A stretch of DNA of 64,000 bases from a candidate division Zixibacteria bacterium SM23_81 (GTDB lineage Bacteria; SM23-81). The notes under the pieces are model-generated. The model was not told the DNA's origin and searched no databases. It saw only the letters and a list, made by a program, of their open reading frames with translations. Position 1 is the first letter of the stretch. Each line of letters begins with the position of its first letter. Made by a program: the position numbers and the translations under genes. Positions 1 through 21,392 of the stretch are shown in pieces. The DNA lies in contig LJUY01000006.1 of the NCBI GenBank assembly GCA_001304015.1, positions 62,001 through 126,000 on the forward strand, read 5' to 3'.

Positions 1-3000
1 GCCTAATACACCTCTCCAGATCTCAGCGATCTTTTTTTCCATGGAACTACGTGGCGCGATGTAATCCAACTTCTCTATTTCGTGACCCTCGCTCAATTGA
101 CGCAAAAGCTGGTAATCAATTTTACCATTAGGAGTGAGAGGAATGGCATCAAGTGGAATAAATTGAGAGGGAATCATGTAATCAGGAAGCACCTCTCTCA
201 AGAAACGCCGTAAGGACAAAGAGGAGACAAGCTCGTCACAGATGATATATGCGATTAACCTTTTATCTCCCTGGCCAATATCGGATGTTACTACAACGCA
301 ATCTTTGATGACTTCATGCTTGGACAGCGCTGATTCTATCTCACCTAATTCAATACGAAATCCCCGGATCTTCACCTGCTGGTCGATGCGCCCCAAAAAC
401 TCGATGTTCCCATCGGGCAAATAGCGGGTCAAATCCCCTGTCTTGTACAAACGTGCGCCTGGCTTCTCATTGAAGACGTTGGGGACGAACTTCTCCGCTG
501 TCAACTCTGGATGCTTTAGATAACCCCTGGCCAGGCCCACACCTCCAATGTGCAATTCAGCCGGCACGCCAATGGGAACGGGTTGTAAATGGGCATCCAG
601 CAGAAAAACTTGCGTGTTGCTAATAGGCCGACCAATAGGTGGCGTTCGCCTATCTTCTGCGCATTCAGCTACGGTTGACCAGATGGTATCTTCGGTGGGA
701 CCATAGAGGTTAAAGATACGACGTCCCTTGATCCAGCGTGGAACGAGGTCTCCAGGACAGGCTTCTCCAGCTACATTGAGTATTCCCAACGCCGGTAATT
801 TCTCGGTCGGTAAGGCACCCAGAACCGATGGGGTGAGTACCATACAAGTTATGCTCAAATCTTGCATTAACTTTATCAGGGCGGGGCCGGGTAGCAGGGT
901 CTCCTCCTTCCCCAGGCAGAGCGTTGCTCCAACTCGCAAAGCCAAAACGATATCGAAGATTGATGCATCAAAACTAAAAGAAAAAAACTGCAGGACACGG
1001 TCGGTAGAGCCGAGCTTAAATGTCCTCATATGTGCGTCAGACACATTACATAGACCACCGTGCGTCACAAGGACGCCTTTGGGTTTACCCGTAGATCCCG
1101 AGGTGTAAATCACATAGGCCAGGTTGTCGGGCATCACACCGCTGATGGGATTCTTCTCGCTCAGTTCATGGATGGTGGCCCAATCTGTATCCAAGCAGAC
1201 CACACGTGCCCTATGCTCAGGCAATCCAGCGAGCAACTTTTCTTGAGTCAACAGCACCGGCACTTGGGAGTCTGACAGCATGAAGGCCAGGCGTTTCTTG
1301 GGATAGGCCGGGTCTAAGGGCATAAACGCTCCGCCAGCCTTGAGCACACCGAGTAGTCCCACTATCATCTCCAATGACCGCTCCATGCATATCCCCACGG
1401 GCACCTCTGGTCCCACGCCAAGATTCCGCAAGTGGTGCGCCAACTGATTGGCACGTGCATTCAAGGCACGATAGGTCAACTGCTCCCCTTCATAAACCAC
1501 ACCGATGGCGTCGGGCGTCCGCCCCACCTGATCTTCAAACAGATGGTGGAAACACGTATTCTGGGGATAATCCGCCCCGGTATCGTTCCATTCCACGAGC
1601 ATTTGGTGACGCTCTGTGGTTGAGAAAAGCGGAAGGTCCCAGATAGGCCGGTCTGGATGAGCAACAACGCCTTCCAGCAGAATCTGGTATTGTTTCGCCA
1701 TCCGGGCAATAGTGGCAGCATCAAATAAGTCTGTATTGTACTCCAACGACCCGATCAGCCCTTCTCCTGTATCCTTCACGATCAGAGTCAAGTCAAACTT
1801 CGCTGTTCCTGTGTGGACCTCCTCCGCGGAGCCAAACACCAGTCCCGGGAGCTCCACATCCTGCCTGGGAGCATCCTGCAGAACAAACATCACCTGAAAC
1901 AGCGGATTGCGGCTCATATCCCGCTCCGGCTGTATTTCCTCAACAAGTTTCTCAAAGGGCAGATCTTGATGAGCATAAGCCCTCAGTGCTTCTTGGCGCA
2001 CTCGATCTAACAATTCCCGAAAGGTTGGCCTTCCCGAGAGATCGGTCCGCATCACCAGTGTGTTGACGAAGAAGCCTATCAATCTCTCCAGCTCGGCCCG
2101 GTTACGATTGGCGATAACCGAGCCCACAACGATGTCTTCCTGGCCGCTATAACGAGCGAGCAAGGTCACGAAGACCGCCAGCAGAGTCATAAACAGACTG
2201 GTCCCTGAACGTTGACTCAGGGCTCTTAGATTTCCTCTCAGTTGAGAATCGATCTCAAGGTGCTCGATACTCCCCTGGAAGGTCTGAACTGCCGGTCGAG
2301 GACGATCAGTGGGAAGCTCCAGCACAGGGATATTGGCAAGATGATTCTTCCAGTAGGCCAGCTGTGCCTCCAACACATCTCCCTCTAAACAACGCCGTTG
2401 CCAAATAGCATAGTCTGCATACTGAATGGGCAGTTCGGTCAGCGGTGAGGGTTTTTTGGAAGAGAAAGCCTCGTAGAGTGCCGCCAACTCCCGAAAGATG
2501 ATTCCCAGAGACCAACCATCGGAGATAATGTGGTGCATGGTCACAAGCAACACATGCTCCTTTTCATCCAGACATAGGAGCTTGGCGCGCAGTAGCGGCC
2601 CACGGGTTAGGTTAAAAGTCCGCTTAGCCTCCTCAGCAGCCAGCCTTTGCAGCTCAGCCTCCTGTTCTGATCCCGGGAGTTCCCGAAGGGCAATCACTGG
2701 CAGGGTTAGGTTCTGAGCAGGGGTCACAACCTGAAATGGTTGTCCATCCAGCGCCACAAAAGCAGTCCGCAAGATTTCATGACGCCGCACGATTTCTCCG
2801 AGAGTCCGCTCGAGCGCCGCCACATCGAGCGAACCTCTCAGGCGCAAGTGCACAGGCATGTTGTAGAAAGGATTGTCAGAGACCAATTGTTCGAGAAACC
2901 ACAACCCCTGTTGGGAAAAGGAGGCCAACACGAACTTTCTATGTTCACCTAAAAGAGTGAGAATCTCTGCCTTACGTTTTGAAAGTTCCCTCCGCGAAGA

Positions 3001-3105
3001 TGGCGTGAGAACTCCTTCAGGTGCACGACAGTGTACTTTACCACTCTCGGTCCAGAGTTCTACTCCCTTTTGTAAAAGGTTGGCTAGAAAGCTAACGGTA
3101 TTCAT
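1..3105 (-). CDS. Nonribosomal peptide synthetase, TubC docking-C-A module (3' end cut by window edge)
   Basis: Second NRPS protein of the cluster; about 1035 residues are visible and the frame runs open off the left edge. Residues 1-50 look like a TubC-type N-terminal docking domain (LLQKGVELW, then CRAPEGVLTP and RKAEILTLL). A condensation domain follows, with its catalytic HHIISDG near residue 190. The adenylation domain starts near residue 540, with YTSGSTGKPKG near 666, NLYGPTEDT, and the catalytic Lys of PNGKIDY near 990. Only the beginning of the carrier domain is inside the window. The start ATG overlaps the stop of the upstream NRPS gene as ATGA, so translation is probably coupled. 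By-eye specificity residues are D-A-F-V-N-A-L-I-W; I do not recognise a substrate. The docking domain implies that it receives the peptide from the upstream one-module protein. Confidence 0.93.
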   Translation of the reverse strand, partial: MNTVSFLANLLQKGVELWTESGKVHCRAPEGVLTPSSRRELSKRKAEILTLLGEHRKFVLASFSQQGLWFLEQLVSDNPFYNMPVHLRLRGSLDVAALERTLGEIVRRHEILRTAFVALDGQPFQVVTPAQNLTLPVIALRELPGSEQEAELQRLAAEEAKRTFNLTRGPLLRAKLLCLDEKEHVLLVTMHHIISDGWSLGIIFRELAALYEAFSSKKPSPLTELPIQYADYAIWQRRCLEGDVLEAQLAYWKNHLANIPVLELPTDRPRPAVQTFQGSIEHLEIDSQLRGNLRALSQRSGTSLFMTLLAVFVTLLARYSGQEDIVVGSVIANRNRAELERLIGFFVNTLVMRTDLSGRPTFRELLDRVRQEALRAYAHQDLPFEKLVEEIQPERDMSRNPLFQVMFVLQDAPRQDVELPGLVFGSAEEVHTGTAKFDLTLIVKDTGEGLIGSLEYNTDLFDAATIARMAKQYQILLEGVVAHPDRPIWDLPLFSTTERHQMLVEWNDTGADYPQNTCFHHLFEDQVGRTPDAIGVVYEGEQLTYRALNARANQLAHHLRNLGVGPEVPVGICMERSLEMIVGLLGVLKAGGAFMPLDPAYPKKRLAFMLSDSQVPVLLTQEKLLAGLPEHRARVVCLDTDWATIHELSEKNPISGVMPDNLAYVIYTSGSTGKPKGVLVTHGGLCNVSDAHMRTFKLGSTDRVLQFFSFSFDASIFDIVLALRVGATLCLGKEETLLPGPALIKLMQDLSITCMVLTPSVLGALPTEKLPALGILNVAGEACPGDLVPRWIKGRRIFNLYGPTEDTIWSTVAECAEDRRTPPIGRPISNTQVFLLDAHLQPVPIGVPAELHIGGVGLARGYLKHPELTAEKFVPNVFNEKPGARLYKTGDLTRYLPDGNIEFLGRIDQQVKIRGFRIELGEIESALSKHEVIKDCVVVTSDIGQGDKRLIAYIICDELVSSLSLRRFLREVLPDYMIPSQFIPLDAIPLTPNGKIDYQLLRQLSEGHEIEKLDYIAPRSSMEKKIAEIWRGVLG

Positions 3106-6100
3106 AGCTCTAACTTCTCAAAGTCCTCACGAGAGGTGATGGTGTCGATTTCAGTAGCCGACTGAGCCTTGAGGATGTCTCCATTAGCCTGGGTAAAGCC
3201 GGCTATCGTGGGTGCCTCAAATACGCTACTGAGAGGAAGCTCCACCTTAAAGGTGTCTCGGATGTGGGACACCACCTGCATGGTAAGCAATGAGTGTCCT
3301 CCCAACTCAAAGAAATTATCGTGCACACCGACGCGTTCAACCCCGAGTACTTGGGCCCAGATTCTGGCCAGAATTTCCTCAACTGGATTTCGTGGAGCAA
3401 CAAAGTCCTTTTCCAATTCAGGTCTTATTCGCTCCGGTGCAGGAAGCCGCTGACGGTCTACCTTCTTGTTGGGCGTTAGGGGAAGCGCCTGCAGCATCAT
3501 GAAAGAAGAGGGAACCATATAATCTGGCAATTTCTTGCGCAGGAAACCACTCAATTCATTGATTGTGGGTGTCTGCTGCTGCTGTGGAACCACATAGGCC
3601 ACCAGGCGTTTGTCACCAGGCTGATCCTCCCGAGCCATAACAACGGTCTCTCGCACAGCAGGGTGTCCTACCAGTACAGTTTCAATTTCTCCCAACTCGA
3701 TGCGGAAACCGCGAACCTTTACCTGATAATCAAGGCGACCGATAAACTCGATGTTGCCGTCGGGCAGGTAGCGGGCCAGATCCCCAGTTTTGTACAGGCG
3801 CGCTCCCGGCTCCGCGCTGAAGGGGTTGGGGATGAACTGCTCAGCCGTCATCTCAGGGTAGTTCAGATAGCCTCGGGCAAGGCCAGCGCCGCCCAGGTAC
3901 AGTTCGCCAAGAACTCCAATGGGAACAGACTGGAGATGTCGGTCCTGTAGATAGACTTGCGTATTAGCGATGGGGCGGCCGATGGGCGGTGATCCCGTGG
4001 CCTCCCCCCTCACCAAGGCAAATGTAGAATAGGTGGTGTCTTCCGAGGGGCCGTAGAGATTAAAGACCTGTTGAATCGTGTTCTGCTGATAGATCTGCTG
4101 CACAAGATGTTTCTGGAGCGGTTCCCCAGCCAAGTTCACGGTGTGCACCGAGGCAGGGATGCTATCGGCTCTCACCAACTCGGCTATCGTGGAGGGAACC
4201 GTGTTGATCAGGGTTACATCATTGGCGGCGGGTAAAGTGCGCAAATGTAATGCATTCTTGACCAAAATAACCTTGCCACCCCAGCTCAGAGGCACAAACT
4301 GCTCAAAGATCGACAGGTCAAAGCAGATTGATGTAGACAGCAAGACGCTAGCAAAATCCTCTGGAGCAAAGACTTCTCTCGCCCAGTTCAACATCACCAC
4401 GGTGCTATGATGCTCGATACCCACCCCTTTAGGCCTGCCGGTAGACCCCGAGGTATAGAGCACGTAGGCCATGTTATTGGCTGTCACATCAGTGACGGGG
4501 GTTCGCGCGCTCTCGCGAGCAATAATCTCCCTATCTGCATCTAGGCATACCACACTTGTTTCCTCTTTGGAAAACCGATGAGCTAACCGCTGTTGGGTCA
4601 ATAGCACTGGTGCTTGGGTGTCCTCCAGCATGAAGGCCAGACGCTCTTTTGGATACCATGGATCAAATGGAACGTAGGCTCCACCGGCTTTGAGAATACC
4701 AAGTAGCCCCACCATCATCTCTACCGATCTCTCGACGCAAATACCCACTAATACCTCAGGCCCTACACCCAGCTTTTGCAGGTAGTGCGCCAGTTGATTG
4801 GCTTGGCTGTTTAGCTCTCGGTAGGTCAGCTGCTCATCTTCAAAAACCAAAGCGATGGCGTCCGGAGTCTGATCCACTTGATCTTCAAACAACTGATGGA
4901 TACACTTTTCCTCAGCATACTCTCTATGAGTGTCGTTCCAGTCTAATATCAACTGATGTCTCTCGGCCTCGGTCAGCAAAGACAATTCCGAAAGCCGTTG
5001 CTGTGGATTCTCTACAATGCCTTCCAAGAGGGTTTGCAAATGCCCCAGCATGCGAGCAATGGTAGCGTCGTTGAAGTAATGTCGATCGTATCCAATCTCC
5101 AGCAAAAGTTCTGGCTCTGAATATCCGGACAGTACCAAGGGATAATTCGTCTGACCGGTGAACCGAACTTCTCGCTTCTCCCAACCACCACCCTCCGCCT
5201 GCAAAATAGAATGAAATGTGAAGTTCTCGAACACTACCAGGCTTTCAAATAATGGTTTACCCGCGGGTATGTCACTCCATTCCATAATTCTTGGCAGTGG
5301 CGTGTGCTCATACTCTCGTAATGCCACCCACTGCGCCCGAAGTTCCTTCAACAATAGCAGTAACGACTTTTCAGGAGACAGGGATGCCCGCATTGGAAGG
5401 GTGTTGAGAAGTATTCCCACCATGGATTCAATTCCCTCCAGAGCCGAATGACGACAGGCTCTTGTGGCTCCAAAAACCACATCCTCTTCGCCGCTATAGC
5501 GGCTCAGGAGCAGGACCCAAGCTCCTTGTATGAGGGTGTTGAGGGTTAATTCATGTCGTTCAGCCAGGGATCGCAATGCTGTCGTCATGGTTTCCGTGAG
5601 TCGAATTCCTTTCTCTTTATAATCCCCTTTCTCAACAGACTTATCACCATGGACGCGGTCTACGACCAAAGGTGTGGGAGCGGTGAAGCCTTTGAGCGTA
5701 CGTCGCCAGAAAGTCTCTGCCTCAGTCAGGTCCTGTTCCTCCAGCCAATTGATGTAGTCCCGATAAGGAGGGGCATGTTTGAGGGACAAGTCCTGGTTCT
5801 GAGAAAAAGCTTCGTAAAAGGCAAAGATCTCTAACCAGAGTAAATAGGCAGATCGACCATCTAACAAGGCATGGTGCAAGGTCCAGATGAACCGGTAGTC
5901 GGCCTGGCCCACTCGAAAAAGCGCCAAGCGCACAAGGGGGGCCTCGGTGAGTTCGAAACTACGACATCGATCCGTCTGGAGATATGACAAGAGCCGGCTT
6001 TTCTGCTCCTCCGTAGGAAGATCCCGCCAGTCTTGTTCTTCGAATGGGAGGGTAACATGCGTGTGTACGTCCTGAAGAGGCTCCTTGAGCCCCTCCCAAC

Positions 6101-6308
6101 GGAAACTTGTTCTTAAGATGGCGTGCCGTTCCGCAACTCGCTGCCAGGCCCTCTTGAAGGCAGAGACGTTTAGGTCTTCATGGAAAGCACAGATAAACTG
6201 CACATGATATACGCCGGACTGTCGCGTATTTAGGCTATGGAAGAGCATGCCCTGCTGTACGGGTGAAAGGCGGTATGAATCTTCGATATTCTCTGTTTTC
6301 ATTCGCAT
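3102..6308 (-). CDS. Nonribosomal peptide synthetase, one C-A-PCP module
   Basis: A 1068-residue single-module NRPS. The condensation domain begins at the N-terminus (SPVQQGMLFHSL) with HHALLDG at residues 145-151. The adenylation domain has YTSGSTGRPKG and NLYGPSEDT. The carrier protein has LGGHSL, with the phosphopantetheine Ser near residue 1006. The A10 motif reads NKKVDR instead of the usual NGKxDR; the following Lys near 949 is present. By-eye specificity residues are D-L-F-N-N-A-L-T-Y, a code I recall as assigned to alanine or similarly small residues; treat that as a hypothesis. A short acidic tail (REDFEKLEL) could be the partner of the downstream TubC docking domain. An N-terminal condensation domain in the first protein suggests an acyl or aminoacyl donor from elsewhere. 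It follows the MbtH gene by about 120 bp. Confidence 0.95.
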   Translation of the reverse strand: MRMKTENIEDSYRLSPVQQGMLFHSLNTRQSGVYHVQFICAFHEDLNVSAFKRAWQRVAERHAILRTSFRWEGLKEPLQDVHTHVTLPFEEQDWRDLPTEEQKSRLLSYLQTDRCRSFELTEAPLVRLALFRVGQADYRFIWTLHHALLDGRSAYLLWLEIFAFYEAFSQNQDLSLKHAPPYRDYINWLEEQDLTEAETFWRRTLKGFTAPTPLVVDRVHGDKSVEKGDYKEKGIRLTETMTTALRSLAERHELTLNTLIQGAWVLLLSRYSGEEDVVFGATRACRHSALEGIESMVGILLNTLPMRASLSPEKSLLLLLKELRAQWVALREYEHTPLPRIMEWSDIPAGKPLFESLVVFENFTFHSILQAEGGGWEKREVRFTGQTNYPLVLSGYSEPELLLEIGYDRHYFNDATIARMLGHLQTLLEGIVENPQQRLSELSLLTEAERHQLILDWNDTHREYAEEKCIHQLFEDQVDQTPDAIALVFEDEQLTYRELNSQANQLAHYLQKLGVGPEVLVGICVERSVEMMVGLLGILKAGGAYVPFDPWYPKERLAFMLEDTQAPVLLTQQRLAHRFSKEETSVVCLDADREIIARESARTPVTDVTANNMAYVLYTSGSTGRPKGVGIEHHSTVVMLNWAREVFAPEDFASVLLSTSICFDLSIFEQFVPLSWGGKVILVKNALHLRTLPAANDVTLINTVPSTIAELVRADSIPASVHTVNLAGEPLQKHLVQQIYQQNTIQQVFNLYGPSEDTTYSTFALVRGEATGSPPIGRPIANTQVYLQDRHLQSVPIGVLGELYLGGAGLARGYLNYPEMTAEQFIPNPFSAEPGARLYKTGDLARYLPDGNIEFIGRLDYQVKVRGFRIELGEIETVLVGHPAVRETVVMAREDQPGDKRLVAYVVPQQQQTPTINELSGFLRKKLPDYMVPSSFMMLQALPLTPNKKVDRQRLPAPERIRPELEKDFVAPRNPVEEILARIWAQVLGVERVGVHDNFFELGGHSLLTMQVVSHIRDTFKVELPLSSVFEAPTIAGFTQANGDILKAQSATEIDTITSREDFEKLEL

Positions 6309-6428
6309 TTTCTCTCTCGGCTTGACCGATTTTGATGATCAGATGGAAACCAGATAGGGCGGCCAGCTGCTTTTTGTATACAGGAATTAAACCGCTCTCT
6401 TTTGTCGGTAACTCACAATTTTACCAAA

Positions 6429-7046
6429 CTATGCCTCTACAAACTCAAGATGCCCTTGACCTGTTAGGGTATTGAGATCAATGTCAGCGACACACTGGAC
6501 TTTAACGTAATTAAGCGTCAGACCCCCCACAAGATGAGCATTCCCAGTTTGGTTATCGAAATCGGCCTGGTTTAAATCGGTCGTACCATGATCAAGTCTA
6601 ACTCCCAGCTCTGTCCCCCCCCTTGTATCCGTGAACTTAACAAGGATATATCCTCGATCGATAGCTTCTCTAAAGAGTTTAACAGTCTTTTCAGGTCGCA
6701 GAGCTATTTCCACTGGATGATCGCCTTCTGAAAGAAATTGTCCCAAATCGTCCCTCGGGTCTTTCTTTTTATTTTTCTCTGCCTCATTTACTTTCAAGGC
6801 TTTTTCCTTATCTCCTTCCTCTCTCTTTTGGGCCATCTCCTCCATTTTCTTTCTGAGACTGAGTGGCCGCATATCCGTCCAGACTTTCTTTATGAAAGCC
6901 AGGCACTCATCTTTAGACCCACTTTGACCAACCTTTTTCCAGCCAAGAGGCGGATTTCCTTTATGCTCAAGCCAAATAGAATACTGCTCTTCTTGATTTA
7001 CGACGACTTCGTATGTCGTCGTGTCCTCCTGGTTGTCTCTATTCAT
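6429..7046 (-). CDS. MbtH-like protein fused to a C-terminal domain of unknown function
   Basis: Residues about 10-70 are an MbtH-like domain: NQEEQYSIW, the PPLGWKKVG segment, and WTDMRPLSLR. MbtH proteins bind and activate NRPS adenylation domains, and this one sits directly upstream of two NRPS genes. Ordinary MbtH proteins end near residue 70. This one continues through a charged Lys/Glu-rich linker (about 70-105) into a domain of roughly 100 residues containing FREAIDRGYILVKFTDTRGG and ending GQGHLEFVEA, which I do not recognise. The ATG at 7046 has a GGAGG eight bases upstream. A TTG at 7061 is in frame but lies across that ribosome site, so I reject it. Product length is 205 residues. 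Confidence 0.85.
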   Translation of the reverse strand: MNRDNQEDTTTYEVVVNQEEQYSIWLEHKGNPPLGWKKVGQSGSKDECLAFIKKVWTDMRPLSLRKKMEEMAQKREEGDKEKALKVNEAEKNKKKDPRDDLGQFLSEGDHPVEIALRPEKTVKLFREAIDRGYILVKFTDTRGGTELGVRLDHGTTDLNQADFDNQTGNAHLVGGLTLNYVKVQCVADIDLNTLTGQGHLEFVEA

Positions 7047-7358
7047 CTCGCCATCCTCCAAATGGAGCCGTCTATCGAATTCTTTGACAGCCTTTCCAGT
7101 GAGATGACACCCTACCTGATCTCTTTAGCTGCATTTCTCCAACGAAAGATAAAAAGGAAAGAGCGTCACCACTTTATCGACCTTGATTACGAAGTGCGCT
7201 CAGCGACCAGCTAGCGTGAAAGAGTTCAGTGACCCTGACAGCAGAAAAAGGACTACATTTCCGCAGGCTCTGGCAATTTATAGCAGATCAGGTAAGGCCC
7301 TTCCAATTTTCCACTGACTTCCTGGTGCGCCCATCTTCCCCGGATTCCCCTGAGCACT
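7047..7358. other. Intergenic leader before the MbtH-NRPS operon
   Basis: About 310 bp without a gene between the phosphodiesterase stop and the MbtH start. It holds a candidate sigma-70 promoter (listed separately) and a leader of roughly 220 nt. I see no clear terminator hairpin. A plus-strand open frame across this stretch has no recognisable product and starts inside the MbtH gene, so I do not call it. Confidence 0.5.
7277..7306 (-). promoter_or_regulatory. Candidate sigma-70 promoter for MbtH-NRPS
   Basis: On the minus strand: -35 TTGGAA (7301-7306), an 18-base spacer, and -10 TATAAA (7277-7282) preceded by TG with one base between, an extended -10. It points at the MbtH gene with a leader of about 220 nt. 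It would give the NRPS genes their own transcription start, separate from the phosphodiesterase/cysC genes. Confidence 0.4.
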
Positions 7359-8699
7359 TTACACAGCCACACGCCCATCTACATCCTGGGGCACGCGAAC
7401 GTCCATCATGCTCAGAATGGTGGGCATAAGATCCATAATCTCCACATCTTCCTGTACAGAGCGCCGACCCAGCACCAACAAAAAAGCATCATCGTAAGTG
7501 TGCATACCCACTAAGGCCGTTTTTTCAAACAACAAAGCTTTCTTAACATCCGCCTTGAGATCAAATCCATCAGTGGGAATGGCGATGAGATCTGCCGCCT
7601 GGAACAGACTATCCCCGTGATAAATCTCCTCCCTCCTCGCTACCTTCCGGATGACCCTCTCCCCTGTATCTGGGTTCCGAAGCTCTAGGAGACCCTCGGC
7701 TACCTCCCCTCTGACTCGATCATAATCAGAGGGGTCTACACTTCCCTTGGGTTCCCGCCCCTTCATGTTGATGTAGATGCGCCCGGGAAGGAGCGTGTAG
7801 GCTTTGGAGCTGGGATGAATATCCTGGAGGCTCTCAGGTGGATTCTCTCCGAATCTCAGCCATCCCTTCTCCAATAAATATCGACTGAGATTCACCTCTT
7901 TCTTAACGGTGCAAAAGCCGTGGTCGGACAACAGGATAAAGGTAACATCATCGTTCATCCTATTGTGGAACATACCTAGAATCTCGTCGATCTGCTCATA
8001 GTAATTCAGGAAGGGCGTTTTGTATTCGGGATGTTCCTGCTCCATATGCTCCCACATGAAGTGATTAATTCTATCGGTGCCCATAACATGGAGCTGAAAA
8101 TAATCCCAGGACTGGCGGTCCATGAAATAGGACACGGCCTGAATTCTCCTTTCCAAGGTAATGCGCAAGTCCTCCAAGAACTTGTCCAAGGATTCCCGGG
8201 CCTGGGCAGAATCCACGTCGATTCGGTAACCCATCTGTTCCAGCTGTCCAGCGATCTCCCTGGGGAATGTGGCCTTTTTCAGGTTGGTGGCCAAAAAGCC
8301 AGCCACCAATATTCCGTTTACGGATCTGACTGGATATGTGACCGGAACGTTGATGACCACGACCCTCTTTCCTCGTTCGCTGAGGATCTCCCACAGAGTC
8401 TTGCTGGTCATGTTCAAAGAGGTGGGTATGAACATCTCGTAGGAGCTAGGACGGTGATCCACGAAGCCGAAGATGCCATGCTTTCCCGGATTTTTCCCGG
8501 TCATGAAGGTGGACCAGGCCACTGAGGAGATGGTGGGTAATACGGATCTCATCCTGGTGAATGAGCCTTCTTCCACCATCTTGGCAAGGTGCGGAAGCCG
8601 TCCTTGGGACATCTGTGCTTCCAGGAAGCTATAAGGGACACCGTCGAGGCTGAGAACGAAAACGCGGCGTTTTTTTGGCCTAGTTCTAAAAAAAGCCAT
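7359..8699 (-). CDS. Alkaline phosphatase superfamily (type I phosphodiesterase-like) enzyme 1
   Basis: About 446 residues of the type I phosphodiesterase/nucleotide pyrophosphatase fold. Visible metal and catalytic sites: first Asp in VLSLDGVP, nucleophile region LPTISSVAWSTF (Ser at the position of the family Thr/Ser), DRINHF (Asp and His), LLSDHGF (Asp-His), and the late His in VGMHTYDDAF. All expected ligands are present, so it should be active. Family members hydrolyse or transfer phospho- and sulfo-esters; the substrate is unknown. I chose ATG 8699, with an AGAGGA upstream, over the in-frame ATG at 8720, which lacks a ribosome site. It lies 34 bp after cysC. No signal peptide or membrane segment is visible, so it is probably cytoplasmic. 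Confidence 0.85.
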   Translation of the reverse strand: MAFFRTRPKKRRVFVLSLDGVPYSFLEAQMSQGRLPHLAKMVEEGSFTRMRSVLPTISSVAWSTFMTGKNPGKHGIFGFVDHRPSSYEMFIPTSLNMTSKTLWEILSERGKRVVVINVPVTYPVRSVNGILVAGFLATNLKKATFPREIAGQLEQMGYRIDVDSAQARESLDKFLEDLRITLERRIQAVSYFMDRQSWDYFQLHVMGTDRINHFMWEHMEQEHPEYKTPFLNYYEQIDEILGMFHNRMNDDVTFILLSDHGFCTVKKEVNLSRYLLEKGWLRFGENPPESLQDIHPSSKAYTLLPGRIYINMKGREPKGSVDPSDYDRVRGEVAEGLLELRNPDTGERVIRKVARREEIYHGDSLFQAADLIAIPTDGFDLKADVKKALLFEKTALVGMHTYDDAFLLVLGRRSVQEDVEIMDLMPTILSMMDVRVPQDVDGRVAV

Positions 8700-8733
8700 G
8701 TCCTGTGTTCCTCTGCTCATTCAATCTGTGGAC

Positions 8734-9369
8734 TTAGAGATACCCGAGATCCTCTAGCCTTCTCTGGATCTTCTCTTCCTCTTCCTGGGAATAAACCTCA
8801 TCCTCCTCCAGCGAAGCCATCTGGTCTGCCACCGTTGACAGGGCCGGAACGTAACCCAATTCTTCTAGCTTCCGGATGACCGTATCTCGACATTCCTCTG
8901 GGCCAGTCTTATCGACCTTTAGGAGAACTTCTGGATGAAGCGGCTCTTCATAAGGATCGTCCACCCCAGTGAAGTCCTTAATCTCTCCCGCCCTGGCCTT
9001 CTTGTACATGCCCTTCACATCTCTTTGCTCACAGACCGCCACAGGGGCAGCCACAAAGACTTCCACAAAGTTGGTGGTCTCCCTTCTGGCATTGTCTCTT
9101 GCCTCTCTATATGGAGAGACAAAAGAAACCAGCACAGCTACCCCATTTCGACTTAACAGCTTGGCTACGAAAGTGACTCGCTCGATGTTTTTGTCTCGGT
9201 CCTCTTTGGAAAAACCCAAATCGCGGGTCAGGCTCTGTCTGACGATGTCTCCATCCAGACGCTCGACCCTCAAATTTCTCCTCTTCAACTCTTCGGCCAC
9301 CAAATCGGCCACCGTCGTCTTGCCGGAGCAGGGAAGCCCTGTGAACCACACGGTACATCCTGGTTGCAT
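8734..9369 (-). CDS. cysC: Adenylyl-sulfate kinase (APS kinase) with C-terminal tail
   Basis: Phosphorylates adenosine 5'-phosphosulfate to PAPS, the sulfuryl donor for sulfotransferases. Walker A is GLPCSGKTT at residues 10-18. The APS-binding segment (LDGDIVRQSLTRDLGFS), the ERVTFVAKLL helix and the lid region (GMYKKARAGEIKDFTGVDDPYE) are typical. The kinase core ends near residue 175. The last 35 residues form an acidic helix ending RLEDLGYL, not usual for CysC but resembling the tail of many alkaline-phosphatase-superfamily proteins. ATG 9369 has GGAGG eight bases upstream. The gene sits between two phosphodiesterase genes; the partner ATP sulfurylase is 4.5 kb upstream in the same direction. 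Confidence 0.96.
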   Translation of the reverse strand: MQPGCTVWFTGLPCSGKTTVADLVAEELKRRNLRVERLDGDIVRQSLTRDLGFSKEDRDKNIERVTFVAKLLSRNGVAVLVSFVSPYREARDNARRETTNFVEVFVAAPVAVCEQRDVKGMYKKARAGEIKDFTGVDDPYEEPLHPEVLLKVDKTGPEECRDTVIRKLEELGYVPALSTVADQMASLEEDEVYSQEEEEKIQRRLEDLGYL

Positions 9370-9388
9370 TTTAGGATCCTCCTTGAAC

Positions 9389-10774
9389 TTAGATGATAGA
9401 TTTTCCCTCCATATCTTCTGGAACTGGTAGATTGAAAATCCGAAGTATCGTCGGGGCGAGATCCATCAAATGCAGATGAGATACCTTGCCCCTGGGAAGT
9501 CCTGAGTTCTTCATAACAAATATGCCGTATTGCGAGTGATTGGCGTCGTCCGGTCCAGTATCGTTCTCAAAGGTGTGGATGTCTCCGAAGCCCACACTGC
9601 CCACGGAACGCCAAGATAGGTTCCCGAAGTAGATGATCAAATCTGGAGCCACGTTCTTCACCTGAGGATAGATATCCTGAGGCTTGAAGACACGGGTATT
9701 GATGTTCTCACCATTCTCATCCTCGATGGCCTCCAGCTTGGTAATGAGATGGTCGCGGAACTTCTCATAGTCTTGGGGTTCGATAACTCCCTGGGGCTCC
9801 CGGTTCTTTACATTGAGGAACAGCCGGCCATAATAACCCCCGGAGCCCCAGGCTTTGGTGTGAGGCCAGTCTATGTTATCGTGGCTCAGAGGAAAAACCT
9901 CCCTGGGAGGATTTTTCAATCGCAGATACCCTTCCCTCATGAGCCATTCGTTGATGCAAATCCCACCGTCCATACGTTGAGCGCCGTGATCGGAGACGAT
10001 GAAGATCACGGTCCGCTCGTCCACCTTGCTCACTATTCGACCAACCAGGCTGTCAACATACTGGTAATATTCCTTGAGAACACTCTTGTACGGTGAGTTT
10101 GGCTCATACTTTCTATGCTGCTCATCGAAATACTTCCAGAGGCCATGATGAATCCGATCGATGCCCATATCCACGAACATAAAAAAGTCCCATTCCTTGT
10201 TTACCAGAAGATGGTTCACAACCCGAAACCTGTTCTCGGTCATATCGTAAATCTGCTTGATGAGATCATCCTTGTCCTCTGTCCTGAACTTCTTCACGTC
10301 CAAGATGTACTCTCCCACCACATCTTCGATCTCCCTCTTCAACTCCTGCGGATAGGTATATTGGCAGTTTGTGTCCGGGGCCAGAAATCCGGATATCATA
10401 GAACCATTGAGAGGTTTCGGTGGATAGGTTTGAGGAACGCCAACCAGAACGCTTTTTTTGCCTGCTCGGGACAGTATGTCCCAAACTCGATCCTCCTTGA
10501 CCGCTTGAGAGGTAGCGAAGTACATCTCATCATAGGAATAGTTCTTCCGATTGCGAAAGCCATAGAAACCCAACACTCCAGGACTTTTGCTAGACACCAT
10601 AGAGGTCCAGGCTGGAACGGTAATGGGTGGTATTGTGCTCTCAAGTTCCCCATACACGCTCTGCTCTAGAATTGCTTTGAAATGAGGTAAATCATCAACC
10701 CAGCGGTCAAAGATCAGCTGAGGGGTAGCGCAATCCAGGCCTATGACCAGCACTTTCCTGCCGGTGTGAGGCAA
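9389..10774 (-). CDS. Alkaline phosphatase superfamily (type I phosphodiesterase-like) enzyme 2
   Basis: A 461-residue paralogue of the proteins at 7359 and 11062. Sites visible: VIGLDCAT (first Asp), IPPITVPAWTS (nucleophile Thr), GIDRIHHGLW (Asp and His), FIVSDHGAQ (Asp-His), and DANHSQYGIF (late His). All metal ligands are present. The family uses a Thr/Ser nucleophile and two metal ions on phosphodiester or sulfate-ester substrates; the substrate here is unknown. The start is TTG at 10774, supported by GGAG seven bases upstream; the nearby ATG is out of frame. It ends 19 bp before cysC, so the two are probably cotranscribed. No signal peptide is seen. Confidence 0.85.
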   Translation of the reverse strand: MPHTGRKVLVIGLDCATPQLIFDRWVDDLPHFKAILEQSVYGELESTIPPITVPAWTSMVSSKSPGVLGFYGFRNRKNYSYDEMYFATSQAVKEDRVWDILSRAGKKSVLVGVPQTYPPKPLNGSMISGFLAPDTNCQYTYPQELKREIEDVVGEYILDVKKFRTEDKDDLIKQIYDMTENRFRVVNHLLVNKEWDFFMFVDMGIDRIHHGLWKYFDEQHRKYEPNSPYKSVLKEYYQYVDSLVGRIVSKVDERTVIFIVSDHGAQRMDGGICINEWLMREGYLRLKNPPREVFPLSHDNIDWPHTKAWGSGGYYGRLFLNVKNREPQGVIEPQDYEKFRDHLITKLEAIEDENGENINTRVFKPQDIYPQVKNVAPDLIIYFGNLSWRSVGSVGFGDIHTFENDTGPDDANHSQYGIFVMKNSGLPRGKVSHLHLMDLAPTILRIFNLPVPEDMEGKSII

Positions 10775-11061
10775 AAAGCATCTCCTTTCATCAGATAGTT
10801 AAAAGAGTAACTCTCATCCTCTCAGAATTCACAAAACCTTCATTTTGCTCAGAAAACTCTAGCACACGCGACAAGTTACTCTAAAAAGGATTTCTTGCTT
10901 CTTATTTTCTTAACAAGCTTTCCTCGTTGTAAACCTTTCCCACCGATTCTCCGGTGCGACAAGAAAATCGAACCTCTTGTTTCTTCCCTGTGGCATGAAG
11001 GGTCTTTCTACGAAAACCTCGAGAACTTCCTAATGATCCAGCCAGGAAGTGAATATTCTGG

Positions 11062-12555
11062 TTATGGGCTAAAAGAATCCTGAAAAATCCCTTTGAGGAC
11101 TTTTCCATCAGTATCAATGGGAATGCCTATTTTTAACATATGAAGTATAGTTGGAAAGAGATCGACTATTTCCGCTCCAAAGAACTGCTTTCCCTTTTGT
11201 ATAATTTTGCCGTGTGCGATGAAAATACCCTCCAAACTGTGATCTCCAGAAGCCCAACCTGTCAATTCATATAATCTCTTTTTATATGGACTCGTGGCAT
11301 AGTTTTCGTAGGTGTGAAAAACCAAATCAGGTGCTAGGTCAGAAAAGGGACCATTGAAATATTCCTCACGGTAAAATACATCCCGAATGACGGCATGGTT
11401 GTTTTGAGGATCGCGGGTGTTCAACAAGGCCTGCTTTATAAAACTCCTTAATTTCTCATACTCTTCCCCCTGGCTTACAATACCCTCTGGCTCTCTGCCC
11501 CTTAAATTTACCTGTATCCCAACTTGCTGATCCCCAGCACAATAAGCCTTAGTGTTTTTCCAGGAAACTTGGCTTTTAGGAGAGAGTATCTTCCTTCGGC
11601 CCGATAAATTCCTTAGAACTTGGCGTCTAAGCTTGTGTATAAAGGGAATGTCCAGCGCTCGTAAGAAAGCGAGAGTTCTGGCTTTCCCCTTGCGGAACTT
11701 AAGCAGGTGGTGGGTCATCAACCAATCATTGACATCAAACTGCTTATGCGCCGACTGAAAACCGTGATCTGAGATAAGAATCAACACGGTGTCTTCATCC
11801 AACCTGGCTCGGATTTCTCCTATAGCACTGTCCAACATCATGAAAAATTCATCTATCAATGGCATATACTTTTTAGACTCTTCAGCATTGAATTCGGGAT
11901 GAGTACCATCGATATACTTCCACAAGCAATGTTGCACTCTATCTGGTCCGGTAAAAACGACTATACAAAAATCTGGCTGATAGAGGTCGAGAAGAAAAAG
12001 TGTCGCCTCTTTTCTTATTGTGGTCATTTTTTTCACGTCTTCAATGAGATCGCTCACTCTATTTTTGTACCACTTCCAGACTAGATTTATGGGGTAGTCT
12101 CCGATTTTCTCTTTAAGCTTCTTTCCCAGCTCCTCAGGATAGGTGAATGTGCTATTTGTACTCGGGGTAAGCATGCCCGAGATTAAAAAACCATTCACTG
12201 GCTGCGGTGGGTAAGTGAGGGGCACATTTATCACGCCAACCTTTTTGCTATTGCGACTTAAAATTCTCCATAAAGTCTCACTTTTCATTACTTTCGAATG
12301 GACAACCCTCTTTCGGTAAAAATCGGAAGAGTCAGGGATTCTAAATCCAAAAATGCTGTGTTTCCCGGGTTTTTTCCCGCTCATGAAGGAGGCCCAAGCT
12401 GCCATGGAATTTGGCGGAATTACAGATTTTAATTCACCAAAGGTCCCTGTTTTAATGAGCTCTGCCAAATTCGGCATTTTGCCCCTGGATATCATTGGGT
12501 CCAATATTTTGAATGTGGCTCCATCTAAACCAATAACCATCACTTTGCTCTTCAC
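11062..12555 (-). CDS. Alkaline phosphatase superfamily (type I phosphodiesterase-like) enzyme 3
   Basis: A 497-residue member of the same family. Sites visible: VIGLDGATF (first Asp), IPPNSMAAWASFMSG (Ser at the nucleophile position), GPDRVQHCLW (Asp and His), LISDHGFQ (Asp-His), and ASGDHSLEGIF (late His). A basic stretch around residues 295-330 (RKGKARTLAF, HKLRRQVLRN) is not seen in the other two. I start at GTG 12555, which has GGAGG just upstream and begins 22 bp after the upstream stop; a TTG at 12585 would overlap that gene. It follows a GT4 glycosyltransferase. A gap of about 290 bp with no gene separates it from enzyme 2. Confidence 0.85.
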   Translation of the reverse strand: MKSKVMVIGLDGATFKILDPMISRGKMPNLAELIKTGTFGELKSVIPPNSMAAWASFMSGKKPGKHSIFGFRIPDSSDFYRKRVVHSKVMKSETLWRILSRNSKKVGVINVPLTYPPQPVNGFLISGMLTPSTNSTFTYPEELGKKLKEKIGDYPINLVWKWYKNRVSDLIEDVKKMTTIRKEATLFLLDLYQPDFCIVVFTGPDRVQHCLWKYIDGTHPEFNAEESKKYMPLIDEFFMMLDSAIGEIRARLDEDTVLILISDHGFQSAHKQFDVNDWLMTHHLLKFRKGKARTLAFLRALDIPFIHKLRRQVLRNLSGRRKILSPKSQVSWKNTKAYCAGDQQVGIQVNLRGREPEGIVSQGEEYEKLRSFIKQALLNTRDPQNNHAVIRDVFYREEYFNGPFSDLAPDLVFHTYENYATSPYKKRLYELTGWASGDHSLEGIFIAHGKIIQKGKQFFGAEIVDLFPTILHMLKIGIPIDTDGKVLKGIFQDSFSP

Positions 12556-12577
12556 ATGTCCTCCATAGATGACCTTT

Positions 12578-13750
12578 TTATACAATAGCTCGATAAATAT
12601 CGATAACTCTTTCAGCGTTTCTTTTCCAAGTATGGTGCTTTCTTATATGCTCCATAATCTTAGATCCAAGCTCCTTCCGAAGCTTGGAATCATTAACCAG
12701 AATGAGGATTTTCTCTTTCAAGTCCTCTGCATCACCAGGATTTATCAAAATCCCATTTTTGCCATCCTCTATGACTTCTTGAACGGGTGCTGTACGCGGG
12801 GCAATCACCGGTTTCCCCATGGCCCCGTACTCAAAAATCTTAATTGGCGAACCATTCCAATTGGAGTTGGGCATCACACAAATATCCATTGCTGCAATAT
12901 GAGCGGGCACCGCCTCAAAGGGAATCCCACCGGTGAGCGTAAAATGTTCGCTTACGCCTCTGCCTTTTAAATTCTCTTCAAACTGCCTCCTATCCCTAAA
13001 GCGACCAACTACAAGAAAATGTAGTTCCTTCCTCTCTCTGATCAAATCCTGGGCCAATCTTATGAGAAGCTCTACGCCATGATGTTTGTGCATACTTCCC
13101 ACAAACCCAATGACTATTTTACCTCGCAGACTATATTTATTCCGAATGTCTTGGAAGGCACTGCTAGAATCAAACAATTCAGTATCTACACCATTTGGCA
13201 AGACATGTATCTTCCTTGAAGGAACCCCTCTTTTGACAAGATAATCCCTCATAACCCCAGATATAGTGATTATGGCATTCGTACATTTTTCAACTTTTCT
13301 TTGAATCAATGAGGCCAAGAATGAAAAGTGAGCTGGACCAAACCGACTTCTTGCCTCTATGGGGGCATTGATTTCCAGAATGTGGGGTATTTTGAGATCT
13401 CGCGCTATTGTTGAACTTGCCCAAAAAAAATAGGAATACCTTTCATAAATAAAGTCGGGGATCTCCCTCTTAAAAAAAGACTTATAAGAGCTTAAGAAAT
13501 TGTAGTTATAGTATATTTTGTACCCATCTCTCACCATCGAAGCAATAGATAGGGGTAAAATGTACTTCTGGTTTGAGAAAGACAATTTGGCTTGGCTTTC
13601 TCTTGTGCCTTGCCCAGCAATTATGGGGACGACCATATGTCCAAGTTTACGATATGCCTCTATTAAATTGACTATATGAGATGTCGATCCTGTATAAACA
13701 GAATTATCTATTCTTAGCCCTGGATTCCCAACAACATAAAGAATCTTCAT
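12578..13750 (-). CDS. GT4-family glycosyltransferase
   Basis: A 390-residue GT-B fold transferase. The N-terminal half opens MKILYVVGNPGLRIDN with a Gly-rich TGSTSHIVNLI loop. The C-terminal half has IVIGFVGSMHKHHGVELL and the donor-site segment KIFEYGAMGKPVIAP, with Glu in the EX7E-like region. Family members move a sugar from a nucleotide donor to a lipid-linked or glycan acceptor at the inner membrane face. The ATG at 13750 has only a weak ribosome site. It lies between the ATP sulfurylase gene and the phosphodiesterase genes, suggesting the sulfated or phosphorylated product is a glycan. Donor and linkage cannot be read from sequence. Confidence 0.88.
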   Translation of the reverse strand: MKILYVVGNPGLRIDNSVYTGSTSHIVNLIEAYRKLGHMVVPIIAGQGTRESQAKLSFSNQKYILPLSIASMVRDGYKIYYNYNFLSSYKSFFKREIPDFIYERYSYFFWASSTIARDLKIPHILEINAPIEARSRFGPAHFSFLASLIQRKVEKCTNAIITISGVMRDYLVKRGVPSRKIHVLPNGVDTELFDSSSAFQDIRNKYSLRGKIVIGFVGSMHKHHGVELLIRLAQDLIRERKELHFLVVGRFRDRRQFEENLKGRGVSEHFTLTGGIPFEAVPAHIAAMDICVMPNSNWNGSPIKIFEYGAMGKPVIAPRTAPVQEVIEDGKNGILINPGDAEDLKEKILILVNDSKLRKELGSKIMEHIRKHHTWKRNAERVIDIYRAIV

Positions 13751-13862
13751 GAGGTATCACTGCGTTTCCACTTATGGTTCAAGGTAACATTTTTAGGCAC
13801 AGCAGTTGCTTTGATTCCCCTGAATGCGGTGAGAGAACTTGCTTTTTCGACTTTCTCTGCCT

Positions 13863-15014
13863 CTATTCAACAAAGGGATCATCTGCGCTAGCCAAAACTT
13901 CCACTATTTCCGGTCTCATAATCTCCGAGGCCACCTCAGCGCCCTCGGTGATGATCCCCCGTATTTTGGTCCCGCTGGGAGTTAGCCACGAGTCTTTCTG
14001 GTGGGGACAGGTCTTAGCTGTGGCCATGTTCTCACAGGCTTGACAGTAAAAAGAGTGCTCGAAGAAGAGAGGTTGAATTCCTAGATCGGGAAAATCGGCG
14101 AAAATCCTGTGTGCGGCATAGGTATCGTAATAATCGCCAACGCCAGCGTGATCCCGTCCGATGATGTGATGGGTACAGCCGAAGTTCTTTCTGACTATGG
14201 CGTGGAAAATGGCCTCTTTGGGCCCCGCGTAGCGCATCTGCCATGGCAGAATGCTCATCACCACCCTGTTCTGAGGATAGAAGTCGTCGATGAGAGTCTG
14301 ATAGGCCTTTAGGATCAGCTCATCGGTAAAGTCGCCGCTTTTTTTTCTCCCGATAACTGGATTGATGAACAAACCGTCACAGATTTCCAAAGCACACTTC
14401 TGAATATATTCGTGGGCTCGGTGGGGCGGATTTCGCGTCTGAAAGGCTACCACCGTATCCCATCTCCTTTTCCGAAATAGATAGCGAGTCTCCTTGGGAG
14501 AGAGATTATAGCGCTTATATGGTATCCTGATGTCCTCCAGTAAATCCACAGCACCGCTCAAGAAGACATCGTGAAGGCCGAGGAATTTTTTCACTCCAGG
14601 ATGTTTTTCATCGTCGGTTCCGAAAACGCCCCTGGCGATTTTCAATTTGTCAAATCGATATTTCTCCTCTAAATGTAATAGGGCCAGAGGAATTCCGGCC
14701 TCATCCATAAGGGTGAGGGTTTGTCCTTCCTTCAAGAACCTGGCCTGAGATTCCTCCACGGCCAACAGAATGGGAATCGTCCAGGCCAGCCCTTTGGCCA
14801 AACGCCCCTCCTTGACCACAGATTCCACATCGGCGCTGCCCATGAATCCTTCCAGAGGACTGAAGACACCCCGAGCGAGATTCTGGACCTCAGAGACGGT
14901 CTCAGCAGACACGGTCAACTGAAACATTCCAGGAATCTCAGTCAGGATGTCTGCTCCTTTCTCTGGGCTCAATATTCGATTGACCAGTTTTCCACCATGA
15001 GGTTTAATCAACAA
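13863..15014 (-). CDS. sat: Sulfate adenylyltransferase (ATP sulfurylase)
   Basis: Makes APS from ATP and sulfate, the first step to PAPS. The single-chain Sat type is recognised by QTRNPPHRAHEY, GRDHAGVGDYYD, and the zinc-type cysteines of CQACENMATAKTCPHQ near residue 330. Length (383) is normal for bacterial Sat. The start is TTG at 15014, with GGAG eight bases upstream; the nearby ATG runs into a stop within four codons. No APS reductase genes are present, and the only partner in the window is CysC, so the pair more likely feeds PAPS to sulfation than to sulfate respiration. That is inference from context. Confidence 0.95.
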   Translation of the reverse strand: MLIKPHGGKLVNRILSPEKGADILTEIPGMFQLTVSAETVSEVQNLARGVFSPLEGFMGSADVESVVKEGRLAKGLAWTIPILLAVEESQARFLKEGQTLTLMDEAGIPLALLHLEEKYRFDKLKIARGVFGTDDEKHPGVKKFLGLHDVFLSGAVDLLEDIRIPYKRYNLSPKETRYLFRKRRWDTVVAFQTRNPPHRAHEYIQKCALEICDGLFINPVIGRKKSGDFTDELILKAYQTLIDDFYPQNRVVMSILPWQMRYAGPKEAIFHAIVRKNFGCTHHIIGRDHAGVGDYYDTYAAHRIFADFPDLGIQPLFFEHSFYCQACENMATAKTCPHQKDSWLTPSGTKIRGIITEGAEVASEIMRPEIVEVLASADDPFVE

Positions 15015-19525: not shown

Positions 19526-21379
19526 TTAAAAGTAATACCAGATGGTCCTGTAATCATCCAAGTTCTCACCCATCTCCTCAAGGCGTCTCAGATAGCTCAG
19601 GATGGGGACATCTACGTGGATGAAGCTATCCACTGGAGAGATGTTCCGCTCCCAGGGAAAAAATTCGTAGATTCGCCGACCATCTGGGGTCAACATGATC
19701 ACGTCGTGATCCTGCCAAGCGATAAGGTAGCTTTTTCCCAACCGGGGAACGTTGAAGACGGCGGCATCAGAGCGGACCATTCCCGAGAACAGCCGAACTT
19801 CCTCCCTTTTTTCCTGAAGCAGCCGAGCAATGGGAGCCCGGTAGGACTCCGTCTCCTCTTTTCCTTTGGCGACAAAGGTGTAGTAAGGTTCGATGCCTAT
19901 AACCCGCAATTGTCGTCGAAGAGCTGCGCTTTCAAACCTCCTACTGTTGTATGTGGTAAAGACCAGCTGATTGTACACCGGGATGCCCCTGCGACGAATT
20001 CTGGCCACAGCCATGACCATCTCTGGAGTCACCTCGTAGAGGTGCTCCACGTGGGTAACTACGACGATCTCCCTTTTAGCTGGCACGTGGTACTTGCCCA
20101 GCAGGCTCACCAGAGAGGCTGTGAACCTCTGAGGGATGGTAACCAGAAGCCGCGTTCCTAGCCGAATCCGCTCTACATGGTCAATCTCGCTGAGGTTTCT
20201 CAAAAGAGCGTCGAGCTTATTGTCGCTCATCACCAGGGGATCTCCACCGGTGACCAGCACCTCTCTAATGGCCGGATGGTTCCTGATCCAGGTGAGCGCC
20301 GCCCTTATCGCCTTTTGGGAAGCCAAGGCCCGAGGGCCCAGCACCTGATGAATCTCCCAATTTCTCTGGCAGTAAACGCAGATCTGCGGACAAGAGTTAT
20401 AAGGCTTAAAAGCCACAATCTGCGGATAGCGTCTGGTGATCAAATCCATGGGAGAGGTGTCATGCTCGCCCATATAGTCCGCGGAGAGTTCTCGATCCTT
20501 TTTATGCTGGATCATCCAACTTACATAGCTTTCCGGGGGAATAACCTGAGCCCTGATGGCGCGATCGTTTCGGTGGCTGTCAGTCCTGTCTAGCAGAGAT
20601 AAGTAAAATGGCGTAATGCCAAAAGGGAGGCCGTTGGCTCGGGCACGTGCAATCTGCCGGCCCTCTTCCTCGGTCAGTTCCACCAGGCAGTTCAGGGTTC
20701 GCTCATCTCGAATGACCTGTTGTAGATGCCAATGCCAATCATCCCAATCCTTCCTCCGGCTACTAAAATAGCGCAGGATCCGTTGTCTGTTTCGCTGGCG
20801 TCTCCTAACTACCTTGGGGTTCAGACCCGATGGATAGCGTGCCATGAACCTGTCCATAGAACGGTACATGCCATCTAGAAGTCGGGACCTCGCCTGAGCG
20901 GCTCTCCTCCCTCTCATGTCCAAGTAAGTCGGACGCCTCATATGGTCGTAGATGCCGGATTGGCCACTTATTCCCCGGAAAAGGTGGATCAGATCCTCCA
21001 CGAAATCCTCGGTCACCGACTGCAAAACCTCCACATCATCACCCCTAATTAGGTGATACAGATAATAGAGAGAACTCACACCGGTGACCTTTTCATTCCG
21101 TTTGGCCAGAATATTCCTGAACACGGCCAAGCACTCCCGTATGTTCGCTCGCTCCAGGTACTGGGTCTCTTTGAATCCCATCTCCAAAGCTCTCTGCTGG
21201 CTGTCCAGGAATTGATAGAGGCGACGGCGGGCTTCCTCGAGACTCCTGCTCCGGGATAGGATAGTGCAGATTTGCGGAGACGCATTCTTGAGCCGTTGTA
21301 GCAAGGACTTCTCCATCTGCATTGGTTCAGAAGAAGCTTGACCCACTTTGCTCTTGGTCGAAACCCCCGTTTCGGTCAC
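19526..21379 (-). CDS. KamA-family radical SAM 2,3-aminomutase-like protein
   Basis: A 617-residue radical SAM enzyme of the lysine 2,3-aminomutase family. The iron-sulfur motif is CPQICVYC within FKPYNSCPQIC. It is followed by VLVTGGDPL and IRLGTRLLVTIPQRFT, both typical of KamA. The C-terminal PLP-binding loop, normally PGGGGK, is shortened to VPRLGK, keeping the Lys. By eye, the two Asp residues that bind the lysine epsilon-amino group are Lys (VAKGK) and Asn (VFNVP) here. The first 130 residues are extra, helical and charged. I start at GTG 21379, with GGAGG seven bases upstream and 13 bp after the upstream stop; TTG 21427 would overlap. See findings for a possible glutamate specificity. 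Confidence 0.82.
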   Translation of the reverse strand: MTETGVSTKSKVGQASSEPMQMEKSLLQRLKNASPQICTILSRSRSLEEARRRLYQFLDSQQRALEMGFKETQYLERANIRECLAVFRNILAKRNEKVTGVSSLYYLYHLIRGDDVEVLQSVTEDFVEDLIHLFRGISGQSGIYDHMRRPTYLDMRGRRAAQARSRLLDGMYRSMDRFMARYPSGLNPKVVRRRQRNRQRILRYFSSRRKDWDDWHWHLQQVIRDERTLNCLVELTEEEGRQIARARANGLPFGITPFYLSLLDRTDSHRNDRAIRAQVIPPESYVSWMIQHKKDRELSADYMGEHDTSPMDLITRRYPQIVAFKPYNSCPQICVYCQRNWEIHQVLGPRALASQKAIRAALTWIRNHPAIREVLVTGGDPLVMSDNKLDALLRNLSEIDHVERIRLGTRLLVTIPQRFTASLVSLLGKYHVPAKREIVVVTHVEHLYEVTPEMVMAVARIRRRGIPVYNQLVFTTYNSRRFESAALRRQLRVIGIEPYYTFVAKGKEETESYRAPIARLLQEKREEVRLFSGMVRSDAAVFNVPRLGKSYLIAWQDHDVIMLTPDGRRIYEFFPWERNISPVDSFIHVDVPILSYLRRLEEMGENLDDYRTIWYYF

Positions 21380-21392
21380 GGTTTGTCCTCCG

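Follow-up and report, generated by a model that had tools for sequence, protein, structure and literature searches.

Here, we describe a gene cluster from candidate division Zixibacteria bacterium SM23_81 that we interpret as a conserved cytosolic operon for sulfate activation and sulfation. The cluster occupies positions 7359-15014 of the window, the whole stretch of 64,000 nucleotides that was analyzed (G000:C9:62001-126000, on contig LJUY01000006.1), in a draft source genome of 3.07 Mb that is 92.6% complete. It encodes an ATP sulfurylase (Sat) and an adenosine 5'-phosphosulfate (APS) kinase (CysC), expected to make 3'-phosphoadenosine 5'-phosphosulfate (PAPS), together with a GT4 glycosyltransferase and three phosphodiesterase (PDE)-type paralogs of the alkaline phosphatase (AlkP) superfamily, PDE1, PDE2, and PDE3. 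We suggest that PDE2 and PDE1 are dedicated PAPS consumers, most likely sulfuryl transferases, a reading in which the catalytic step is inferred and to which we give slightly less than even confidence. More tentatively, the two proteins could be PAPS-dependent sulfotransferases with the fold of the nucleotide pyrophosphatases/phosphodiesterases (NPP) of the AlkP superfamily, forming a class unrelated to the P-loop and arylsulfate sulfotransferases, spread over many phyla and in some of them joined to ATP sulfurylase in one polypeptide, which would couple activation to transfer. The initial annotation of the window had raised the possibility of an unrecognized sulfation system whose PDEs install or remove sulfate or handle the 3'-phosphoadenosine 5'-phosphate (PAP) by-product. 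Sulfation stays the best reading, with the gene linkage conserved, whereas PAP handling and sulfate removal now appear unlikely.

The linkage of sat, cysC, and the PDE genes is real, and it is ancient or widely transferred. Among 116 sampled genomes, 12 of ~57 cysC genes have a gene of the PDE family (PF01663) within ~2 kb, where the density of such genes predicts ~2% (binomial p ~1e-9). Given this excess and the recurrent gene order, chance adjacency was rejected. Genomes G004, G027, G045, G102, G105, and G107 show the arrangement sat - PDE2 - cysC - PDE1, often with one to four PDE3-like genes after it; in G001 (at a contig end), G017, G043, G080, and G101, it is incomplete or rearranged. 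The closest relative of the operon is locus L088 of G001, on a Candidatus Zixiibacteriota contig, where PDE2 is 82% and PDE1 74% identical. We then scanned ~85,000 species genomes with a PDE2 alignment and took the best 80 loci, which represent roughly a dozen phyla (Chloroflexota, Zixiibacteriota, Planctomycetota, Methylomirabilota, Acidobacteriota, Eisenbacteria, Actinomycetota, and others). In 46 of the 80, cysC and/or sat lies within 10 kb of PDE2; of 37 cysC genes on the same strand as PDE2, 35 are downstream of it, 22 of these at a distance of 100 bp or less. Seven loci, mostly of Chloroflexota and including L102, encode Sat and PDE2 in a single open reading frame (ORF) of ~865 amino acids, one of them cut by a contig end, and the Sat motifs of these fusions are intact. 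The association is hence conserved far beyond the source genome.

The predicted conversion of sulfate to APS by Sat and to PAPS by CysC is secure by family membership. Sat (13863-15014, minus strand, 383 amino acids; PF01747, E 1.2e-93, and PF14306) has the PUA_2 and ATP-sulfurylase domains of the homodimeric-type enzymes and passes the NCBIfam models PRK04149 (526 bits for a cut-off of 387) and sopT; its translation shows intact QTRNPPHRAHE and GRDHAGVG motifs. CysC (8734-9369, minus strand, 211 amino acids; PF01583, E 1e-62) has the Walker A P-loop FTGLPCSGKTT and is recognized as an APS kinase by apsK (TIGR00455; 227 bits, cut-off 138.7) and PRK00889 (249 bits, cut-off 244). CysC-like enzymes of other pathways exist, such as the CDP-phosphoramidate kinases involved in the Campylobacter capsule. 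We do not favor such a role here, because the protein passes the APS-kinase equivalog and is accompanied by a bona fide Sat.

PDE2 (9389-10774, minus strand, 461 amino acids; PF01663, E 3.4e-49) and PDE1 (7359-8720, minus strand, 453 amino acids; E 1.6e-47) flank cysC at distances of only 19 and 13 bp, respectively. They are homologous over their whole length. In a phylogenetic tree, the three paralogs are separate, with PDE1 and PDE2 each forming one group with a support of 100; the PDE3 group has a support of 63 and a variable copy number. PDE2 orthologs share 41-82% identity. The ligand and nucleophile positions of PDE2 (D14, T52, D206, H210, D262, H263, and H413) are kept in nearly all of 149 sequences, and the proteins have the features of NPP-like enzymes: PF01663 matches above cut-off, a Ser/Thr nucleophile, and two-metal ligands D/D/H and D/H/H. 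The initial annotation had reported complete metal ligands in all three paralogs and nucleophiles Ser, Thr, and Ser for PDE1, PDE2, and PDE3; both statements hold, the sites reading PTISSVAW, PPITVPAW, and PPNSMAAW. PDE2 has in addition four invariant arginines (Arg74, Arg76, Arg164, and Arg317) and a near-invariant Trp388-Arg389 pair, a set of residues that fits a strongly anionic substrate.

Structure predictions gave NPP folds for both core paralogs. The AlphaFold (AF2) model of PDE2 (pLDDT 81.9, pTM 0.88) aligns best with ENPP5 (VIA Z 29.6, rmsd 3.3 over 332 residues) and that of PDE1 (pLDDT 92.3, pTM 0.90) with the Xanthomonas NPP (XaNPP, 7n1s; VIA Z 30.4, rmsd 3.3 over 336 residues). Structure searches with these models returned only NPP-type relatives, which shows fold, not function. 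In the PDB, no solved structure is clearly similar in sequence to PDE1 or PDE2, their identity to solved NPPs being ~14-17%. By hydropathy, we saw no membrane segment or signal peptide in PDE1 and PDE2, save for one of 25 PDE1 proteins above threshold, and therefore these proteins probably share the cytosol with PAPS. The C/S-x-P-x-R signature of formylglycine sulfatases is missing at the nucleophile of all three paralogs and PF00884 scores below cut-off, which rules out this class of enzymes. Since Thr/Ser nucleophiles stand in an NPP-type metal site lacking that signature, the suggestion that the PDEs remove sulfate is unlikely.

Some homologous operons include genes of PAP-phosphatase type. 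In L114, PDE1 is immediately followed by cysQ, whose product scores above the curated cut-off, and genes encoding PHP-domain proteins adjoin cysC or PDE2 in L140, L127, L110, L104, L154, and L059, with an additional one ~5 kb from PDE2 in L108. The two PHP proteins compared with the PDB (from L140 and L059) match 2yb1 (E 3e-45 and 5e-35), a Chromobacterium phosphatase acting on 3',5'-nucleotide bisphosphates; with the L059 protein, 9etk ranks slightly above it. The formation of PAP is therefore expected, at least in these cases. Other neighbors include a Na/sulfate symporter (L098 and L162), a TauE permease (L124), glycosyltransferases, a Wzx-type flippase, and sugar-modifying genes; a P-loop sulfotransferase was seen in only 2 of the 80 loci.

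If PDE2 and PDE1 consume PAPS, which other consumers do these genomes encode? We searched for PAPS reductase/CysD (PF01507, above 80 bits) and for P-loop sulfotransferases (PF13469 or PF00685, at E up to 1e-3) in 46 genomes with the operon (12 from the sample of relatives and 34 through the PDE2 loci, one duplicate being excluded) and in 36 control genomes with a cysC without neighboring PDE. None of the three families was matched in 17 of the 46 operon genomes, against 2 of the 36 controls (Fisher p 0.001); these counts cover the three families named, with the sulfotransferase families PF09037 and PF17784 outside the search. Among these 17 are the closed Ktedonobacterales chromosome CP126532.1 (genome G141, with locus L131) and G133, which measures 7.3 Mb and has the operon PDE2-sat-cysC-PDE1-cysQ at L114. 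PF03567 and PF19798 had no match in the 20 genomes in which they were searched, the control genomes being equally silent. A strong PF01507 match was found in 11 of the operon genomes and in 24 of the controls (p 1.3e-4).

These observations suggest the following mechanism. Sat would make APS and CysC PAPS, which PDE2 and PDE1 would consume by transferring the sulfuryl group to a hydroxyl of a cell-envelope glycan or glycolipid precursor, with release of PAP. The transfer could use the di-metal site and Thr52 in PDE2, or the equivalent Ser in PDE1, and, where one is encoded, a CysQ or PHP bisphosphatase would clear the PAP. The Sat-PDE2 fusions, the structure of the operon, the genes of PAP-phosphatase type, and the many genomes without a known consumer all point to PDE2 and PDE1. 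It is a known property of AlkP-superfamily enzymes that they cross-react between phosphoryl and sulfuryl transfer. We favor sulfuryl transfer over hydrolysis because making PAPS only to hydrolyze it would be futile.

The source genome itself has two proteins matching PF13469, both outside the window. One is on contig C27 (L002:1270-2226). The other (C9:51928-52968, equivalent to L013:9928-10968; 126 bits) has a LIGAQRSGTTL loop and an IHIVRDGRDV motif, and is encoded on the strand opposite to the cluster, beside genes for a methyltransferase and a GDSL hydrolase; it is 9.0 kb away from the edge of the window and 16.4 kb away from PDE1. It belongs to a transcription unit separate from the cluster. 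Within the window there is no PF13469 match, and CysC is the only P-loop protein of the operon. Hence, the initial annotation was right that no sulfotransferase is recognizable in the window, but its statement does not extend to the neighborhood. The annotation had also named a canonical sulfotransferase nearby as grounds for abandoning its proposal, and formally such a protein exists, since the contig continues past the window and carries it 9 kb from the edge; but it is on the opposite strand, and a search of the sister genome G001, where the operon is retained at 74-82% identity, gave no PF13469 or PF00685 protein.

The presence of this protein makes it conceivable that sat and cysC feed a distant P-loop sulfotransferase, for example L013:9928-10968, while the PDEs act as phosphodiester or phosphoalcohol transferases or hydrolases on the same envelope glycan. 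PF01663 also includes the glycosylphosphatidylinositol (GPI) ethanolamine-phosphate transferases, and PDE3-like proteins without cysC occur elsewhere in the source genome, both of which would suit such a division of labor. It accounts poorly for the Sat-PDE2 fusions, the tight spacing of the operon, and the fact that PDE1 and PDE2 are each one clade travelling with cysC; in addition, neither G001 nor the 17 of 46 operon genomes that also lack a strong PF01507 match revealed a P-loop sulfotransferase to be fed. We consider it unlikely. The same can be said, with about as much reserve, of the possibility that PDE2, fused to or beside Sat, is a pyrophosphatase or an APS/PAPS hydrolase by which sulfate activation is pulled forward or regulated, the sulfotransferase being unlinked or still unrecognized. 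The NPP fold of the models is compatible with it, the two P-loop sulfotransferases of the source genome could be the missing partners, and the Sat-PDE2 fusions are reminiscent of the Sat-APS kinase-pyrophosphatase fusions of eukaryotic microbes. Yet PDE2 is accompanied by cysC without a sat within 10 kb in 13 of the 80 loci (e.g., the anammox loci L122, L128, and L167), the second conserved paralog, PDE1, would need a reason of its own, and a known PAPS consumer was not found in the 17 genomes discussed above. Much less probable is a role of the PDEs in removing or recycling PAP. Their nucleotide-processing fold and their linkage to PAPS synthesis would agree with it, but some operons have distinct PAP-phosphatase-type genes, CysQ in L114 and PHP in the six loci named above, and we therefore rejected a PAP phosphatase as the main job of these proteins. 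Such a role would also fail to explain how PAP arises in the genomes that seem to have no consumer. Finally, Sat and CysC also serve sulfate assimilation through PAPS reductase, to which the PDEs could be accessory. The 11 operon genomes with a strong PF01507 match are in line with this, but 35 of the 46 lack one, against 12 of the 36 controls, and the single match of the source genome scores 20.5 bits, below the cut-off of 22.5 in this incomplete draft. We regard this last explanation as very improbable.

Several observations weigh against sulfuryl transfer by PDE2 and PDE1. NPP-fold members normally attack the alpha-phosphorus of nucleotides, and therefore PDE2 could simply hydrolyze APS, PAPS, or pyrophosphate. 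In 34 of the 80 PDE2 loci, many from Poribacteria, neither sat nor a strong cysC lies within 10 kb, and their PDE2 keeps the same invariant residues; the reaction may thus need no local PAPS synthesis. In these cases, either PAPS is made elsewhere or the shared substrate differs, which is the main loose end of our proposal. PDE1 is not always adjacent to the core. P-loop sulfotransferases are also encoded by the source genome and by roughly half of the genomes with the operon, and the figure of 17 consumer-free genomes among 46 depends on post hoc thresholds and on phylogenetically non-independent sets composed mostly of draft metagenome-assembled genomes. As for PAP removal, the best NCBIfam model of the three PHP proteins scanned is indeed the 3',5'-nucleoside bisphosphate phosphatase, with scores below its curated cut-off.

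PDE2 and its partners are also found in other contexts. The poribacterial loci (L116, L125, L130, L134, L136, L142, L148, L150, L153, L155, and L158), with no sat or cysC near, have a conserved neighborhood of another type, including an S58 peptidase, a FemAB-like acetyltransferase, a sulfatase-family cluster, and a PhyH dioxygenase. In anammox bacteria and related planctomycetes (L122 and L128, also L118 and L149), PDE2 stands behind a gene that by eye is kdsA-like; in L122, L128, and L167, the latter without the kdsA-like gene, cysC follows PDE2 and no sat is near. At L062:9589-11620, the source genome has a second cysC that directly adjoins a Na/sulfate symporter (PF00939), surrounded by proteins secreted by the type IX secretion system, with no sulfotransferase or PDE near. 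It also encodes further PDE3-like proteins on contigs C61 (L063, beside a GT4-like gene) and C83 (L064), without sat or cysC on the stretches of these contigs that were examined.

Within the window, the six genes are all on the minus strand, transcribed in the order Sat, GT4, PDE3, PDE2, CysC, PDE1, confirming the co-directional arrangement initially described. PDE3 (11062-12585, minus strand, 507 amino acids; PF01663, E 2.5e-39) overlaps by 8 bp the gene of the GT4 glycosyltransferase (12578-13750, minus strand, 390 amino acids; PF13692/PF00534/PF13439). The latter is a local addition outside the conserved core; a weakly similar glycosyltransferase is upstream of PDE2 in the sister locus L051. 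Upstream of the cluster, the window encodes a beta-propeller protein, then glycosyltransferases and a Wzx/Wzy/Wzz-type polysaccharide cluster. This glycan region includes a 633-residue radical SAM protein of the KamA family with a long N-terminal extension (19526-21427; TIGR00238 above cut-off, the best equivalog being glutamate 2,3-aminomutase, below cut-off). Downstream are an MbtH-domain gene and nonribosomal peptide synthetase genes. Window positions 1-7061, L013:17449-19818, and L014:1821-5105 together hold such synthetase genes, an MbtH domain with an extra C-terminal extension, a 232-residue ORF that by eye resembles 4'-phosphopantetheinyl transferases, and a pair of alpha/beta hydrolases similar, below cut-off, to exosortase-A-system hydrolases 1 and 2.

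PAPS-dependent sulfation is ascribed to P-loop sulfotransferases. In the open-licence literature, to which the search was confined, we found neither a PAPS sulfotransferase of the AlkP fold nor an account of this operon. If PDE2 and PDE1 are transferases, a second, unrelated fold would define a new sulfotransferase class and explain the use of PAPS in bacteria that make it and have no recognized sulfotransferase or PAPS reductase. The Sat-PDE2 fusions and the Ktedonobacterales and Caldithrix-like operons are compact, testable gene sets. The makers of sulfated polymers in environmental granules are an open question, noted for anammox granules (PMC7356697).

How does the operon compare with known systems? 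PDE1 and PDE2 resemble the NPP/ENPP family in their fold and in the seven metal and nucleophile residues, and differ from it by their low identity, the lack of a signal peptide or membrane segment by hydropathy, the PDE2-specific Arg/Trp set, and the genomic partnership with PAPS synthesis. The ascamycin/nucleocidin-type clusters encode a CysC (acmB), sulfate adenylyltransferase (acmA/acmW), a 480-residue "sulfatase" (acmG), and a sulfotransferase (acmK), and disruption of acmG abolishes the sulfamoylated product (PMC4257720). They are similar in having APS/PAPS synthesis genes beside a "sulfatase"-type gene, AcmG and PDE2 being compared by description only, but they contain a sulfotransferase and make a nucleoside antibiotic, unlike the present operon with its proposed role in the envelope. 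In the canonical loci for PAPS-dependent sulfation, Sat/CysC stands beside a P-loop sulfotransferase, as in Chloroflexus aurantiacus Caur_2113-Caur_2114 (PMC3150298). Our operons share with them the joint encoding of Sat and APS kinase and, in some loci, CysQ/PHP-type genes for PAP removal. In contrast to them, at least two AlkP-superfamily proteins stand in place of the P-loop sulfotransferase, and in some genomes one of these is fused to Sat.

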